From the NCBI GenBank assembly GCA_001789045.1, contig MFYG01000001.1, forward strand, positions 1-49,275: a stretch of DNA of 49,275 bases, given 5' to 3'. The notes beneath the pieces were generated by a model. That model did no database searches. It was not told the DNA's origin and saw nothing but the letters and a program-made list of their open reading frames with translations. The stretch is from Candidatus Peribacteria bacterium RIFCSPLOWO2_12_FULL_55_15. Lineage in GTDB: Bacteria > Patescibacteriota > Gracilibacteria > Peribacterales > Peribacteraceae. Position numbers and translations under genes: made by a program. Shown one piece after another: positions 5,430-42,024 of this stretch; within the stretch, counting starts at the first letter, position 1, and every line of letters begins with the position of its first letter.

Positions 5430-6239
5430 ATGTCCCTTGCTCAAGAAATCGGCAGCTTCCTCCGGGCTCACAACATCCGCCTCTCCAGGGAAATGGGTCA
5501 ACATTTCCTCATTGATGAGCGCGTGCTCCGATGCATTGTGAATGCAGCAAACATTCAACTCTGCGATCATATTGTCGAAATCGGAGCCGGTATCGGCGTC
5601 CTCACGCGGGAACTGCTGAAACGCACTCCTCACGTCACCGCCATCGAGTGCGACCGCCGCCTCATACCACTCCTCCAAGAATTCATCCACACCCAGAATC
5701 AAGAAGTAAGAAGTAAGAATTTGGCCATTGTTCAGGAAAATGCCCTGAAATTTTCCTATCCAGAGACTCCCTACAAAATCGTCGCGAACATTCCCTACCA
5801 GATCACCTCCAATCTCTTTCGGACGGTGTTTCGGAAGAACAAGCGTCCACCTCTCTCACTCACGCTCCTCATTCAGAAGGAAGTGGCAGAAAAGATCATG
5901 GGGAAACCGGAACGGAGCCTCCTCACGCTCCTCGTCGAACTCTACGGCACTCCTCGTATCATCCGCACTGTCTCTCCCAATGCATTCCTTCCACCACCCA
6001 ACGTGGAGTCCGCGATCATCCACATTGAGTGTTTCCCTCATCCACTCGCCGACGAGAAAACACTCTCTATGTTGTTCGAATTGGCCACAATCGCCTTTCG
6101 GAAGAAACGCAAGATGCTCCGCGCATCCCTTGGAAAATTCACCAGCATTTCCGCAACGCTTGCCACGGCTAGTATCGATCCCACACGCCGCCCCGAAACC
6201 CTCACAACCGACGAGTGGCTTTCTCTCGCTCACTCCTGA
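5430..6239 (+). CDS. ksgA: 16S rRNA (adenine1518/1519-N6)-dimethyltransferase
   Basis: A 269-residue enzyme that dimethylates two adjacent adenines in the 3' terminal helix of 16S rRNA. The SAM-binding motif I is VEIGAGIGVLTREL (49-62), the acidic loop IECD follows (72-75), and the catalytic motif IV is NIPYQITSN (120-128). Residues about 90-97 (NQEVRSKN) come from a heptamer repeat in a surface loop. The stop and the comEC start overlap as TGATG. A TATGCT hexamer lies 12 nt before the ATG and there is no Shine-Dalgarno site. Confidence 0.93.
   Translation: MSLAQEIGSFLRAHNIRLSREMGQHFLIDERVLRCIVNAANIQLCDHIVEIGAGIGVLTRELLKRTPHVTAIECDRRLIPLLQEFIHTQNQEVRSKNLAIVQENALKFSYPETPYKIVANIPYQITSNLFRTVFRKNKRPPLSLTLLIQKEVAEKIMGKPERSLLTLLVELYGTPRIIRTVSPNAFLPPPNVESAIIHIECFPHPLADEKTLSMLFELATIAFRKKRKMLRASLGKFTSISATLATASIDPTRRPETLTTDEWLSLAHS
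5702..5719. repeat. short heptamer array (AGAAGTA) inside ksgA
   Basis: Two full copies and a partial third of the 7-nt unit AGAAGTA, the same unit found in long arrays at 31971-31998 and 32268-32302. It is translated here as part of a loop between beta strands of the Rossmann fold. Confidence 0.7.
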
Positions 6240-25966: not shown

Positions 25967-26082
25967 GTGTCATGGTGAGCGTAGACGAACCATCACATTG
26001 GCACATCATTGTATCGCCCTTCGTCCCTCGACTACGCTCGGGATGACACGGAGCTCGGGATGACACGGAGCTCGGGATGACA
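25967..26082. repeat. composite palindromic repeat between dnaQ-like gene and def
   Basis: Begins TGTGTCATGGTGAGCGTAGACG and carries CTTCGTCCCTCGACTACGCTCGG, then two tandem 18-nt copies of ATGACACGGAGCTCGGG followed by ATGACAC. The outer GTGTCAT and ATGACAC are inverted. It is the same family as the elements inside pcrA. It ends only about two bases before the def ATG. Confidence 0.75.
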
Positions 26083-26084
26083 CA

Positions 26085-31294: not shown

Positions 31295-32740
31295 TCAACA
31301 GAAGCAACGCTTCCGTCCTACAGGAATAATGCTCGCAAGGAGAATCCACATAGTGTACGAAACAGCACTATCCTCCCATGTGTGGAGGAAGAGAGCGGCA
31401 GTACTGATCCCTACAAATACAAGGAACCACGGAGACAATGGACGAGTAACCAGTAACCAGTAACTAGTAACTCCCACCAGCAGGAGATATAAAACCAATC
31501 CAATGACTCCAAGCTCCACTCCCACTTGTAGGTACCAGTTTTCTGGAAGAAATGGACATCGGCACACACGACCAGTGGGTTGGACTTGTACAGCGCCACT
31601 GAACACACAGAGATTCGGATGGTTCTTTGCCCACGATGTATCCGCACCCTCCGCAAGGAACACGCAGGAGTCACTCAGACGATTCTGCGCTGGTCCGGCG
31701 CTCCCAAGCCCAAGACCAAAGGGATGCGCAGCGATCACCCGGATCGCCTCCACAGGCCTGCGCCAATGCCCACTCGTCGACACTTCGCGAAGGAAAATTT
31801 CTGGGAACGCTATGACACCGATCAACCCAACACAAAGTAACCCAGTAACCCAGTAACCCAGTAACTTCCAACGAGTGAGTAGTTTGTAATGAGTAGTGAG
31901 TAGTACAAACACAATCACTGCAGCCCCCATCCATGCGGCACGGGAGAAGGTGAAAGAGAGAGAAAGAAGCAGAAGTAAGAAGTAAGAAATAAGAAGTAAG
32001 AACTCCTTACTCCTAATTCTCTCCAGCTCCCGCAAAAGAAAAACAACTAACACACTCCATGGGACCAATAACCACATCCCCAATTGATTCGGCCCACTGA
32101 ATGTCGACTGAATCCTCCGGATTCCCGTCCCCCCAATCTGCTGGAACGCTGCCAATGGCCCCTCGGGGAAATAGAGCGAATGAAGATCGCTGTACCCAAG
32201 CCAGATGAAAAAGGATTCCGGAAGAAAGAGGGTGAAAATGCCATACGCAGCAACAACCGCACCGGTGAGAAGTAAGAAGTAAGAAGTAAGAAGTAAGAAG
32301 TATTCCGACCACGGCACGCGACGGAAAATGAGGAAGAGAAGAAGAGGAAAGAGGGTGTACTTCGCGCCAAGCGCGAAAGGGAGAATGGAAAATTGCTTGC
32401 CAGCCGTAGCCTCGGCGAAGACCGGAGAATGAACAATGGAGATACCGATGCCAAGAGCAAGCAATCCCACTATCACCCAATCGAGCACATCGAAGGGGAA
32501 TACCAGTATATTAATATATTGGTATTTTCGCCGGACGAGTTCCGAAACGACAATGAGGAGAATGAATACGAGAAGAAATTCCTTCCAGAGAGCAAGCCAC
32601 CAAAAGGGGGCATTCCCCGGTCCCGCAATCCACCGGGTCACTACCGTCACAAGGAACGCATGGAATGGGAGGAGAGTTATGAGAATGAGAACGAGCCCCT
32701 CACGAAGTTTCTGCAGCACGGAGACAGTGTACAATGTCAT
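31295..32740 (-). CDS. O-antigen ligase/polymerase-like membrane protein
   Basis: A 481-residue protein with about ten to twelve membrane helices. The Wzy_C/O-antigen ligase marks are SFTFSRAAWMGAAV and, after a long external loop, HPFGLGLGSAG and NHPNLCVFSG ... PENWYLQVGVELGVIGLVLYLL. It would join or polymerise surface glycans. Four heptamer/octamer arrays and one palindromic element (VFAEATAGKQF) are translated within it; most of the resulting peptides (YFLLLTS, GYWLLVT types) are hydrophobic and fall in or beside membrane helices. ATG 32740 chosen; its start is three bases from the divergent epimerase start. Confidence 0.82.
   Translation of the reverse strand: MTLYTVSVLQKLREGLVLILITLLPFHAFLVTVVTRWIAGPGNAPFWWLALWKEFLLVFILLIVVSELVRRKYQYINILVFPFDVLDWVIVGLLALGIGISIVHSPVFAEATAGKQFSILPFALGAKYTLFPLLLFLIFRRVPWSEYFLLLTSYFLLLTGAVVAAYGIFTLFLPESFFIWLGYSDLHSLYFPEGPLAAFQQIGGTGIRRIQSTFSGPNQLGMWLLVPWSVLVVFLLRELERIRSKEFLLLISYFLLLLLSLSFTFSRAAWMGAAVIVFVLLTTHYKLLTRWKLLGYWVTGLLCVGLIGVIAFPEIFLREVSTSGHWRRPVEAIRVIAAHPFGLGLGSAGPAQNRLSDSCVFLAEGADTSWAKNHPNLCVFSGAVQVQPTGRVCRCPFLPENWYLQVGVELGVIGLVLYLLLVGVTSYWLLVTRPLSPWFLVFVGISTAALFLHTWEDSAVSYTMWILLASIIPVGRKRCFC
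31445..31472. repeat. heptamer array, 4 x AGTAACC/T in the ligase gene
   Basis: Four tandem 7-nt units (AGTAACC, AGTAACC, AGTAACT, AGTAACT). On the coding strand the unit GGTTACT reads as the heptapeptide GYWLLVT in any frame. Confidence 0.85.
31836..31867. repeat. octamer array, 4 x AGTAACCC in the ligase gene
   Basis: Three exact 8-nt units and a fourth ending TT. It is an 8-nt variant of the AGTAACC heptamer and reads on the coding strand as a GLLGYWVT-type hydrophobic peptide. Directly downstream (31868-31914) is a degenerate GAGTAGT-like run. Confidence 0.8.
31971..31998. repeat. heptamer array, 4 x AGAAGTA in the ligase gene
   Basis: Units AGAAGTA, AGAAGTA, AGAAATA, AGAAGTA. The coding strand reads TACTTCT units, giving the heptapeptide YFLLLTS with one change. 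Confidence 0.85.
32268..32302. repeat. heptamer array, 5 x AGAAGTA in the ligase gene
   Basis: Five exact tandem 7-nt units; translated as SEYFLLLTSYFLLLT, which serves as a membrane helix of the ligase. Confidence 0.9.
32730..32735 (+). promoter_or_regulatory. -10 box (TACAAT) of the epimerase gene, leaderless type
   Basis: GTGTACAAT ends 8 nt before the ATG at 32744 and lies within the first codons of the divergent ligase gene. Confidence 0.45.
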
Positions 32741-36058: not shown

Positions 36059-36826
36059 TTAAACCCTCTCTCTTCCCTCCACCTTAAAAGGGGGAGGGAA
36101 AGCCTTGTACCGCAGAACCAGCCACGGAAACACCACCACGGCATTCCAAATCCTCCGGAATCGCTGCGGTTCATGAATGAACCGCCACAACCACTCAAAC
36201 CCTAATTTCTGGACAAGCACCGGCGCACGCTTCTGCACGCCGGCAAGAAAATCCAGTGTCCCCCCAATTCCTATAGCAACACGTACGCTCGGCATTGCGG
36301 GAAGATGGCGATCTATCCAAATATCCTGATGCGGCGCTCCAAACGCGACAAGGAGAAGATGGGGCTTTGCATCGTTGATGCGCCGAAGAATCTCCTCTAC
36401 ATCCTCCTCCCGCGGCGATCCCGCACATGTTCCCACAACTCGCAACCGTGGATTCCGCGCACAGAGAATTTCCGACGCCCTACCCCCTACCCCCTCCACC
36501 CCTCCAAGGAGAAACACCGGATGTTCCTCCGTGAGCTCCGCACAGAGGCGTTCAACCGTATCCACCCCCGTCACACGCTCCGCAATTTTTTGTCCCGTCC
36601 ACCGGGCCATCCGGATGAGACCGACGCTATCGGGAAGATTCAGTGCGCTCCGTTGAAGAACAGCACGAAAGACAGGATTCCGCGCCGCTTCGGTGAACAT
36701 CTCGCTATTCGGCGTCATGACGTGCATCGCTCGACCATCATCGAGAAACCGGTGCAGCATCCGCACGGCCTCCTCCTGCGTCACAGAATCGACGGGAATG
36801 CCGAGGAGGGTGACACGATCATCCAT
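36059..36826 (-). CDS. WecG/TagA/CpsF-family glycosyltransferase
   Basis: A 255-residue GT26-family enzyme that adds N-acetylmannosaminuronate/N-acetylmannosamine-like sugars to lipid-linked glycans. Motifs: MTPNSEMFTEAARNPVF, LNLPDSVGLIRMARW, VFLLGGVEGVGGRA, LLLVAFGAPHQDIWI and GIGGTLDFLAG, EWLWRFIHEPQRFRR. The last dozen residues (PPPFKVEGRERV) are translated from a palindromic repeat. Its ATG overlaps the stop region of the EamA gene by 8 nt, so they are one operon. Confidence 0.9.
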   Translation of the reverse strand: MDDRVTLLGIPVDSVTQEEAVRMLHRFLDDGRAMHVMTPNSEMFTEAARNPVFRAVLQRSALNLPDSVGLIRMARWTGQKIAERVTGVDTVERLCAELTEEHPVFLLGGVEGVGGRASEILCARNPRLRVVGTCAGSPREEDVEEILRRINDAKPHLLLVAFGAPHQDIWIDRHLPAMPSVRVAIGIGGTLDFLAGVQKRAPVLVQKLGFEWLWRFIHEPQRFRRIWNAVVVFPWLVLRYKAFPPPFKVEGRERV

Positions 36827-40198: not shown

Positions 40199-42024
40199 GG
40201 GGATGAAAGATGAAAAATGAAAGATGAAAGCTTCTCCGCTAATTCATCCACAAAGAACGGCCTCCCATCGTACTTCAGAATCTTGTGCGGAATATCGATG
40301 CCGCACTGCATCTTCAGGAGCATCCCAAGCTGCCCCTGGTAATTCTGCTCAATGAGCACTACCTTCTTTACCTTCTTCACAAGCTTTTCAAGACGCTCGA
40401 TCTTGAGCGGCCAAAGGTAAGTGTAATGCAAGTAGCCAATTGCAGGATTTCGGACTTCGGACTTCGGACTTCGGACCAATAATGAAATAGCATCAAGAAT
40501 AACACCCTTATTGCTTCCCCAGGATACAATAAGAGTACCTACAGTCGTGTCGCCCTTAGACGAGCTCAGGGTGACACTCCTATCTTTGCTTACGATGTAC
40601 AACTCCGGTTCCGGCAATGTCTTCCGTATCGCTTCTATTTTTCGCATGCGTTTCTCCATCTGCATGCGCGCATTCGGAGCGGATTCATCGACGGACCCGT
40701 CGGCGGCATGCTCATCGCCCTGCGCGCAAAACGTCGCCGCTTCCGCGCCCGGAAGCCATCGCGGTGAAACGCCGTCGGGGGTCGTGGGATCGTACCGATC
40801 CGTGCTTTGAAGTTTCCGGAGTTCCGCGGGACGGACGACGAGCCGCCCACGCTCGATCGTCGCCGTCTTATGATCGAAAGGAGCCTGCGTGAAGAGCGCT
40901 TCGGCAAGCTGCTTGTCCGTGAGGACGATAACCGGCGTCTGCCACTCTTCCGCAAGATTGAAAGCGGTAGGCATGAGAGAGAAACAATCATGCGCATCGC
41001 TCACGGCAAGGACGATCCGCGAGAATTCTCCATGCGCGCCGGTAGCGGCGAGGAGAAGATCGCCCTGCGCCGTCCATGTGGGGAGCCCCGTCCCCGGCCC
41101 CGGCCGCTGCGCGACGATGAAGACGGATGGATTTTCGATGATGGCATTGAGCGACACCGTCTCCGTCATGAGATCGAACCCGCCGCCGGAAGTCGCGGTC
41201 ACCGCGCGCGTCCCCATGAACATCGCCCCGCTCATCATCTGCGCGGCGGTGATTTCATCCTCCGCCTGCTTCACGAGCATGCCAGTTGCGTTCTGACAGG
41301 CAGCAATGAACGAGAGGAGCGGCGAACTCGGCGTCATAGGATACCCGGCGTACAGCCGGCATCCGGCATGGATGAGTCCAAGACCCATCGCCTGGCTTCC
41401 AGTGACGAGGAGGTGATCTTTCCAGCGTGCGCTGGAGCTTGAAAGCTTGATTGTCAGGTGATCAGAATGGGACGTTGCAAATGCAAAGCCCTCGACAACG
41501 CAACGGAAATTGAGCATGAGAAGTTCCCTCCCCTTGTGCCCAAATTGCTCCCGTACAAGCGCTTGTAGCTCCGATTCCTTCCGACCAAGGAGTGCCCACA
41601 CCACACTCGTAATAAGGACATTGCCGAGGATCGGTTTTGCTTCGAGTTTTTTGAGAATCATCTCATTCGGAAGATAGAGGACACGCACATGACGACGATC
41701 GAGCAACTTCTGCACACTGGCAGCAAACGACCACTGCGGTGTTTGGTGGAGAATGATTCCTCCCCGTTTTACTTCATGTGCATTCTTCCCAAGACCGAGA
41801 TGATTGAAACAGATAAGAATATCAACCTGTGCCTCCGCACTCTCGATCTGCTCGCCACTGATATCAAGTTGGTAACTCGAGTGTCCACCCTTAATGATCG
41901 ACATGTACTCCCGATAACCGAAGACACAGTATCCGGCGCGCTTCAACCCTTTTGCACACATCTCCCCCACAGAGTTGACCCCCTGTCCTTGTGCGCCGGT
42001 GATTTTGATGGAAACACGATTCAT
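40195..42024 (-). CDS. 2-oxoacid:acceptor oxidoreductase, fused gamma-alpha subunit
   Basis: A 609-residue fusion: gamma domain at 1-190 (ITGAQGQGVNSVGEM, IIKGGHSSYQLDIS) and alpha domain from about 205 (GSQAMGLGLIHAGCRLYAGYPMTPSS, KQAEDEITAAQMM, GPGTGLPTWTAQGDLLL). This is the KorA-type organisation. The far C-terminal part carries repeat-derived peptides: SVTLSSSKGDTT from a palindrome, LVRSPKSEVRN from a heptamer array, and the last residues SSFIFHLSSP from another array at the stop codon. It is preceded by a flavodoxin gene, a likely electron partner. Confidence 0.9.
   Translation of the reverse strand: MNRVSIKITGAQGQGVNSVGEMCAKGLKRAGYCVFGYREYMSIIKGGHSSYQLDISGEQIESAEAQVDILICFNHLGLGKNAHEVKRGGIILHQTPQWSFAASVQKLLDRRHVRVLYLPNEMILKKLEAKPILGNVLITSVVWALLGRKESELQALVREQFGHKGRELLMLNFRCVVEGFAFATSHSDHLTIKLSSSSARWKDHLLVTGSQAMGLGLIHAGCRLYAGYPMTPSSPLLSFIAACQNATGMLVKQAEDEITAAQMMSGAMFMGTRAVTATSGGGFDLMTETVSLNAIIENPSVFIVAQRPGPGTGLPTWTAQGDLLLAATGAHGEFSRIVLAVSDAHDCFSLMPTAFNLAEEWQTPVIVLTDKQLAEALFTQAPFDHKTATIERGRLVVRPAELRKLQSTDRYDPTTPDGVSPRWLPGAEAATFCAQGDEHAADGSVDESAPNARMQMEKRMRKIEAIRKTLPEPELYIVSKDRSVTLSSSKGDTTVGTLIVSWGSNKGVILDAISLLVRSPKSEVRNPAIGYLHYTYLWPLKIERLEKLVKKVKKVVLIEQNYQGQLGMLLKMQCGIDIPHKILKYDGRPFFVDELAEKLSSFIFHLSSP
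40203..40230. repeat. heptamer array, 4 x ATGAAAG at the end of the oxidoreductase gene
   Basis: Units ATGAAAG, ATGAAAA, ATGAAAG, ATGAAAG. The coding strand reads CTTTCAT units (LSSFIFH heptapeptide in any frame), which forms the protein's C-terminus. Confidence 0.85.
40449..40476. repeat. heptamer array, 4 x TTCGGAC in the oxidoreductase gene
   Basis: Four exact tandem copies. The coding strand reads GTCCGAA units, giving VRSPKSE in any frame, in a loop of the C-terminal domain. Confidence 0.9.
40547..40577. repeat. palindromic repeat in the oxidoreductase gene
   Basis: Arms GTGTCGCCCT (40547-40556) and AGGGTGACAC (40568-40577), one mismatch, around TAGACGAGCTC. Same family as in pcrA; read in frame. 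Confidence 0.8.

Follow-up and report, generated by a model that had tools for sequence, protein, structure and literature searches.

Heptanucleotide arrays read in frame at shared sites of a putative O-antigen ligase gene and in other genes of Peribacteraceae

Results

The ligase gene and its arrays

The window, that is the whole stretch of 49,275 nucleotides analyzed here, belongs to a genome assembly (G000) of Candidatus Peribacteria bacterium RIFCSPLOWO2_12_FULL_55_15 comprising 895,810 bases over 24 contigs. One of its minus-strand genes encodes a membrane protein that matched the Pfam family PF04932 (Wzy_C) with an E value of 3.6e-8 and 33.8 bits, against a cut-off of 31.7; no match to this protein was found among the NCBIfam profiles. 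The AlphaFold2 model (pLDDT 90.9, pTM 0.90) had as its top fold match WaaL 7tpg (E 3.5e-5, TM 0.50/0.57). By profile and fold the gene product is thus a putative O-antigen ligase of the Wzy_C/WaaL type, its activity being predicted. Ligase matches are encoded by 69 of the 74 genomes of the GTDB family Peribacteraceae, whose members are tiny and uncultured; the orthologues share no more than 42-56% identity with the window protein, and the relatives carrying them are, where named, Candidatus Peribacteria or Peribacteraceae metagenome-assembled genomes (MAGs). The gene and the arrays within it, labeled by the site they occupy among orthologues, are as follows.

32740..31295, minus strand: gene for a Wzy_C/WaaL-type (O-antigen-ligase-type) membrane protein, putative, single open reading frame of 481 aa
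32268..32302, minus strand: site C array, TACTTCT, 5.0 exact copies; aa 147-158 YFLLLTSYFLLL, within predicted transmembrane helix 146-172
31971..32002, minus strand: site D array, TTCTTAC, 4.6 copies with one mismatch; aa 247-257 FLLLISYFLLL, within predicted helix 244-264
31874..31904, minus strand: degenerate heptamer array, ACTACTC/ACTCATT; about aa 279-289, at the end of predicted helix 267-284
31836..31865, minus strand: site E octamer array, GTTACTGG, 3.8 copies; aa 292-302 KLLGYWVTGLL, within predicted helix 287-311
31445..31472, minus strand: site F array, AGTTACT/GGTTACT, 4.0 copies; aa 423-432 GVTSYWLLVT, at the end of predicted helix 402-432

Five arrays thus lie in the ligase gene, all in one open frame: a clear heptamer array at each of sites C, D and F, the octamer array at site E, and a weaker heptamer array (75% matches over 4.4 copies by TRF, with an exact core at 31890-31904). 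The original prediction, made from the letters of this DNA, had placed heptamer repeats in the open frame of the gene and proposed that they form membrane segments. Both points hold, since the frame is the 481-aa one on the minus strand and the four clear arrays map to transmembrane helices 146-172, 244-264, 287-311 and 402-432 of the model. Chance would give far fewer such repeats: in the whole window 2.5 exact period-7 arrays with 2 copies or more were expected and 18 observed, and for 2.5 copies or more the figures were 0.05 and 6.

It had also been argued that a heptamer array reads as the same heptapeptide in all three frames and meets no stop if its unit lacks one. This arithmetic is correct. 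GGTTACT and TCTTACT are stop-free in every sense-strand frame; the AGTTACT variant does hold TAG in one frame, a frame unused by the ligase gene. The site F array reads, in sense order, AGTTACT AGTTACT GGTTACT GGTTACT. The unit AGTAACCC is an octamer, and as 8 equals 2 modulo 3 the frame logic holds for it as for heptamers.

Two other kinds of repeat were seen in the window. At 32396-32419 (minus strand), in the same ligase gene, lies TTCGCCGAGGCTACGGCTGGCAAG, coding FAEATAGK, a separate repeat dispersed inside genes; four more copies with 3 mismatches occur elsewhere in the genome, and none was found with the reversed control. A perfect 17-bp tandem repeat, GCTCGGGATGACACGGA, is present in 2.8 copies at 26036-26083.

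Same sites and different units among orthologues

Counting the window copy, 60 ligase orthologues were compared; 34 of them carry 76 arrays and 26 are array-free. L146 and L147 are identical and L117 and L119 nearly so, which leaves about 32 independent array-bearing orthologues. Five short segments making up 21% of the gene hold 75 of the 76 arrays, and when sites were defined on half of the species, 97.7% of the arrays in the remaining species fell within them, compared with 30.3% of arrays placed at random. Site F is the commonest (27 arrays at F1 and F2 together) and site D has 19 arrays from 16 orthologues, while the octamer of the window is the only array at site E. The units, by contrast with the sites, are mostly distinct: 11 unit classes in 15 arrays at site A, 18 in 19 at site D and 14 in 14 at F1. 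Even in one genus (g6) the loci differ at site F, with TTGCAAC and its reverse complement in L114, CAGCTGT in L115, and AAGAATG and its reverse complement in L123.

The segment containing site C, W144-G167, is 24 aa long in 60/60 orthologues with the array present or absent, so that an array there replaces a segment of equal length. Segment lengths with and without an array were 24 and 24 aa at site C, 29.3 and 29.0 at B, and 37.8 and 42.9 at D; net lengthening with an array was seen only at sites A (+3.7) and F (+9.2). Array span is unchanged in close pairs, namely L117/L119 (98% protein identity), L117/L133 and L119/L133 (88-89%) and L127/L137 (74%); in the last pair each internal array copy differs by one base. 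The records of L119 (NYYK01000002.1, titled Euryarchaeota) and L127 (JAIPIN010000058.1, titled Kiritimatiellales) both hold a Peribacteraceae ligase, with relatives within this family that are 98% and 74% identical, respectively; these records are probably misnamed or contaminated MAGs.

Period and length of the arrays

Among 59 ligase genes, period 7 accounted for 65 arrays, period 8 for 5 and period 6 for 1, and period 9 was absent; codon-shuffled controls of the ligase genes gave no arrays at any period. Periods 6 and 9 are safe for the frame and would be expected if the frame alone decided; thus the array-forming process itself appears to prefer seven. In 374 kb of Peribacteraceae stretches picked regardless of arrays we counted 17 period-7 arrays, compared with 0.3 in shuffles; such arrays are at background level in other families of the class and patchy in other Patescibacteria. 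Exact period-7 arrays reached a maximum of 37 nt over all the sampled loci, with a second length mode at 30-32 nt for those within genes, and exact arrays of at least 30 nt made up 43/131 in genes versus 6/45 outside genes.

A MutS_V domain was detected in 1 of 40 Peribacteraceae genomes, in comparison with 11 of 14 control genomes. Seven-base loops are poor substrates of MutS, and hence the loss of MutS alone does not account for period 7.

Arrays in other genes

Arrays are not confined to surface-glycan genes. Of 57 homologues of the GMP synthase gene (guaA), 21 carry them, in three loops that stay constant and match gaps or insertions in comparison with GMP synthases of solved structure; of 59 homologues of the UDP-GlcNAc 2-epimerase gene (wecB), 14 do, mainly in a single loop. 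Single arrays were found in the genes of DNA ligase (LigA), KsgA, TrmD, a Mur ligase, riboflavin synthase, an amidohydrolase and a pyruvate:ferredoxin oxidoreductase. The window itself has further heptamer arrays inside ksgA, a WecG/TagA glycosyltransferase gene and the gene of a pyruvate:ferredoxin oxidoreductase subunit, at these positions.

5701-5719: heptamer array inside a gene (ksgA)
36478-36495: heptamer array inside a gene
40202-40230: heptamer array inside a gene
40445-40476: heptamer array inside a gene

Array density per 10 kb was 7.6 in the ligase, 2.7 in intergenic DNA and 1.0 in neighbouring genes. Over ten sampled genomes 72 of 100 arrays lie inside genes; per base, density is greater outside genes in all ten. 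Among the points by which the original prediction was to be judged were array density outside genes and a bias toward stop-free units; on these the outcome is mixed, as density ran against it and the bias, described below, is present in genes.

Reading frame, stops and hydropathy

In the ligase, guaA and wecB genes of about 58 species, 61 copies carry arrays and every one of them keeps a single frame; the copies were located by tblastn, and the count is hence independent of gene calling. Three copies flagged as broken owe this to stops beyond their coding ends, each being one tblastn match in one frame that either overruns the terminal stop or begins upstream of the start of the open reading frame. 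Stop-free units were found for 56 of 72 arrays in genes read in the sense direction, versus 38 of 72 for the antisense and 25 of 56 strands for intergenic arrays. Units bearing a stop occur in genes only as short arrays or as arrays interrupted at the stop; for example, AAGAATG arrays show AAGAATT where TGA would be read.

Arrays are oriented in keeping with the protein around them. Of 15 arrays at site A, 14 encode a sense peptide that exceeds its antisense counterpart in hydrophilicity (KNEELRM, KMENGKW); of 19 at site D, 16 encode one that exceeds it in hydrophobicity. Heptapeptide runs such as KNEELRM probably occur in other phyla too. As arrays of sites A and F1 mostly code hydrophilic peptides, the idea that array peptides are hydrophobic as a general rule has to be given up; the hydrophobic peptides first noticed in the window represent one side of a strand choice.

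Sharing of units within genomes

The 127 arrays compared fall into 78 unit classes, and array pairs share a class in 18% of cases within a locus but in 1% between loci. Unit-sharing pairs are in opposite orientation in 23 of 39 cases; reverse-complementary pairs were found at F1/F2 in 4 of 7 cases versus 6% between species (p = 0.00045), and at A/B in 4 of 8 versus 13% (p = 0.012). AGAAGTA is present at 7 places in the window's genome, the ligase (twice), ksgA at 5701 and ligA among them, and three exact copies of it occur in only 2 of 287 sampled genomes of the phylum. The unit AATGGAA is more widespread, being found in 17 of 70 genomes of the family, with 0 for the reversed control. Genome G204, from another family of the phylum (loci L180-L185, L196 and L197), has AGAAGTA arrays at several places, on one contig strand only, and L197 by itself holds three.

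A phage vector for the arrays was considered and received no support, exact 28-mers of two units being very rare among viral contigs. The search of plasmids with a heptapeptide repeat returned weak matches only.

Discussion

Origin of the arrays

The frame, stop, orientation and position statistics show selection on the protein. We regard as the best account, with a probability of about 0.62, that the arrays arise from a 7-bp-specific array-forming process in a lineage without MutS and are filtered by selection at the protein level; we infer the copying process, and likewise that selection is purifying with no function specific to the arrays. A DNA process specific to 7 bp would create coding heptamer arrays and spread units among the loci of one genome, most likely by slipped-strand or template-switch copying in which the opposite strand is included. 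Purifying selection would then retain those arrays that leave the frame intact, are read without a stop in the frame used, occupy one of the few segments tolerant to insertion or substitution (loops, helix ends) and, as oriented, code a peptide of suitable hydropathy. After fixation the copy number would be held while point mutation ages the array, and in the longer term one unit may be supplanted by another at the same site.

The arrays had been proposed to work as an on/off or structural switch, a contingency locus where free change in copy number toggles a surface-glycan enzyme or alters its membrane segments. The ligase, by prediction, and the adjacent wecB act in surface glycans, a computed gain or loss of 7 nt at an array truncates the ligase to 228-440 codons, and heptanucleotide phase variation is known for HMW1A of Haemophilus influenzae, going by what is said of it in PMC8262952. 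Nevertheless, the idea fails where it was tested most directly, the chance of finding 61/61 array-bearing genes in frame being (1/3)^61 if copy number were free; span is equal in L117, L119 and L133 and in L127 and L137, exact arrays do not exceed 37 nt, the length of site C is constant, and LigA, TrmD, KsgA and GMP synthase, housekeeping enzymes, have arrays likewise, all of which makes a switch highly improbable. We find it quite unlikely as well that the arrays are adaptive, heptamer copying serving exposed proteins as a quick means of rewriting their variable loops and the ends of their helices: the ligase is a hotspot even in comparison with intergenic DNA, arrays are longer in genes than outside, and units supplant each other at one site within one genus (L114, L115, L123), yet cytoplasmic housekeeping enzymes have arrays too, the sites may simply be the variable ones, and 26 of the 60 orthologues do without. 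As for assembly or binning artefacts, which nearly all of these sequences, being MAGs, might invite, they are scarcely credible given that sites and frames agree between independent projects, that a site F array is present in the single-contig 1.24 Mb genome G017 (L022), and that an artefact would not respect the reading frame.

Filtering of a copying process by protein-level selection leaves some observations aside, as a pure tolerance sieve predicts neither a ligase density above the intergenic one nor the greater frequency of long arrays in genes. The hotspot, the longer in-gene arrays and the 30-32 nt mode thus make room for readings in which an element or dedicated machinery takes part. 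One is a selfish element resembling the Rickettsia palindromic elements, an array or hairpin mobilised by some enzyme into tolerated coding places, and this we hold to be doubtful though worth keeping in view. It would suit the way in which a unit recurs across a genome's loci yet is seldom met in other genomes, the inverted pairs (the hairpin being an array plus its reverse complement), the in-frame arrays within conserved enzymes, and the size ceiling with its second mode; on the other hand, the arrays have nothing in common beyond heptamer sequence, insertion should lengthen the gene while sites B, C and D show little or no net gain, and viral contigs very rarely contain the 28-mers of the two units mentioned above. 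Also conceivable, if rather unlikely, is an active machinery specific to 7 nt (e.g. a templated repair polymerase or a reverse transcriptase) that would overwrite coding segments at preferred sites, with exact arrays of at most 37 nt and a genome-private unit copied from locus to locus, often as inverted pairs.

Significance of the arrays

Peribacteraceae offer a natural example of repeat DNA whose period is no multiple of three and which has been turned into protein time and again, at homologous places in many species, with the genes unbroken. The arrays allow a direct study of where proteins tolerate arbitrary segments, of how the strand orientation of one DNA word gives a hydrophilic or a hydrophobic peptide, and of why seven bases are favoured in some bacteria, a matter unsettled since heptamer excess was first reported. 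They also advise caution, as an intragenic heptamer array is not automatically a phase-variable locus.

Comparison with known systems

The open-access literature yielded neither a paper on repeats of this kind in Peribacteria or CPR nor an account of heptamer arrays that recur between species at homologous positions of coding sequence. The excess of heptamers in bacteria, together with a proposal of slippage governed by polymerase contacts, was already known (PMC4692102, PMC4679880), and heptanucleotide SSRs include the STRRs of cyanobacteria, GGGAATC of Xanthomonas and TAACTGA of Beggiatoaceae (PMC4692102, PMC4679880). Like these, the arrays described here are tandem, of few copies, dispersed, in both orientations and over-represented relative to other periods, with an excess of period 7 over both chance and other periods. 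Studies of heptanucleotide SSRs emphasize intergenic copies and one or a few units per genome, and TAACTGA inside genes is found chiefly at protein ends (MacGregor, PMC4679880), whereas Peribacteraceae arrays are often in conserved genes and in frame (72 of 100 in genes, hence not mainly intergenic), and share sites between species while their units differ.

With SSR contingency loci such as those of Haemophilus and Neisseria the arrays have in common a tandem unit whose length is no multiple of three and a place in a surface-glycan gene; they differ in having 0/61 out-of-frame alleles, in being short and, in the close pairs compared, unchanged in length, and in including housekeeping genes. 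The Rickettsia palindromic elements are repeat DNA in coding sequence, to go by the account for which PMC6649704 cites Ogata et al. (2000, 2002), and as there described they too are in-frame repeat DNA tolerated in conserved genes, with a neutral or selfish origin presumed. Our arrays agree with them in being in frame in GuaA, LigA, KsgA, TrmD and the ligase, and depart from them, on that same account, in their 7-bp tandem unit, in a sequence that differs between species (78 unit classes in place of one conserved palindromic family) and in occupying several sites without net insertion.

The coding palindromes of nematomorph mitochondria are likewise inverted repeats in coding sequence with both arms translated and with gains and losses between species, but they are perfect repeats of considerable length, reaching 284 bp (PMC6649704), in contrast to the short heptamer arrays that form the arms in Peribacteraceae. 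Finally, the PARCEL palindromic amphipathic repeats resemble our arrays in that repeat DNA codes membrane-associated segments; PARCELs share one 25-residue motif (PMC2996958), while the arrays of Peribacteraceae share only their 7-bp period.
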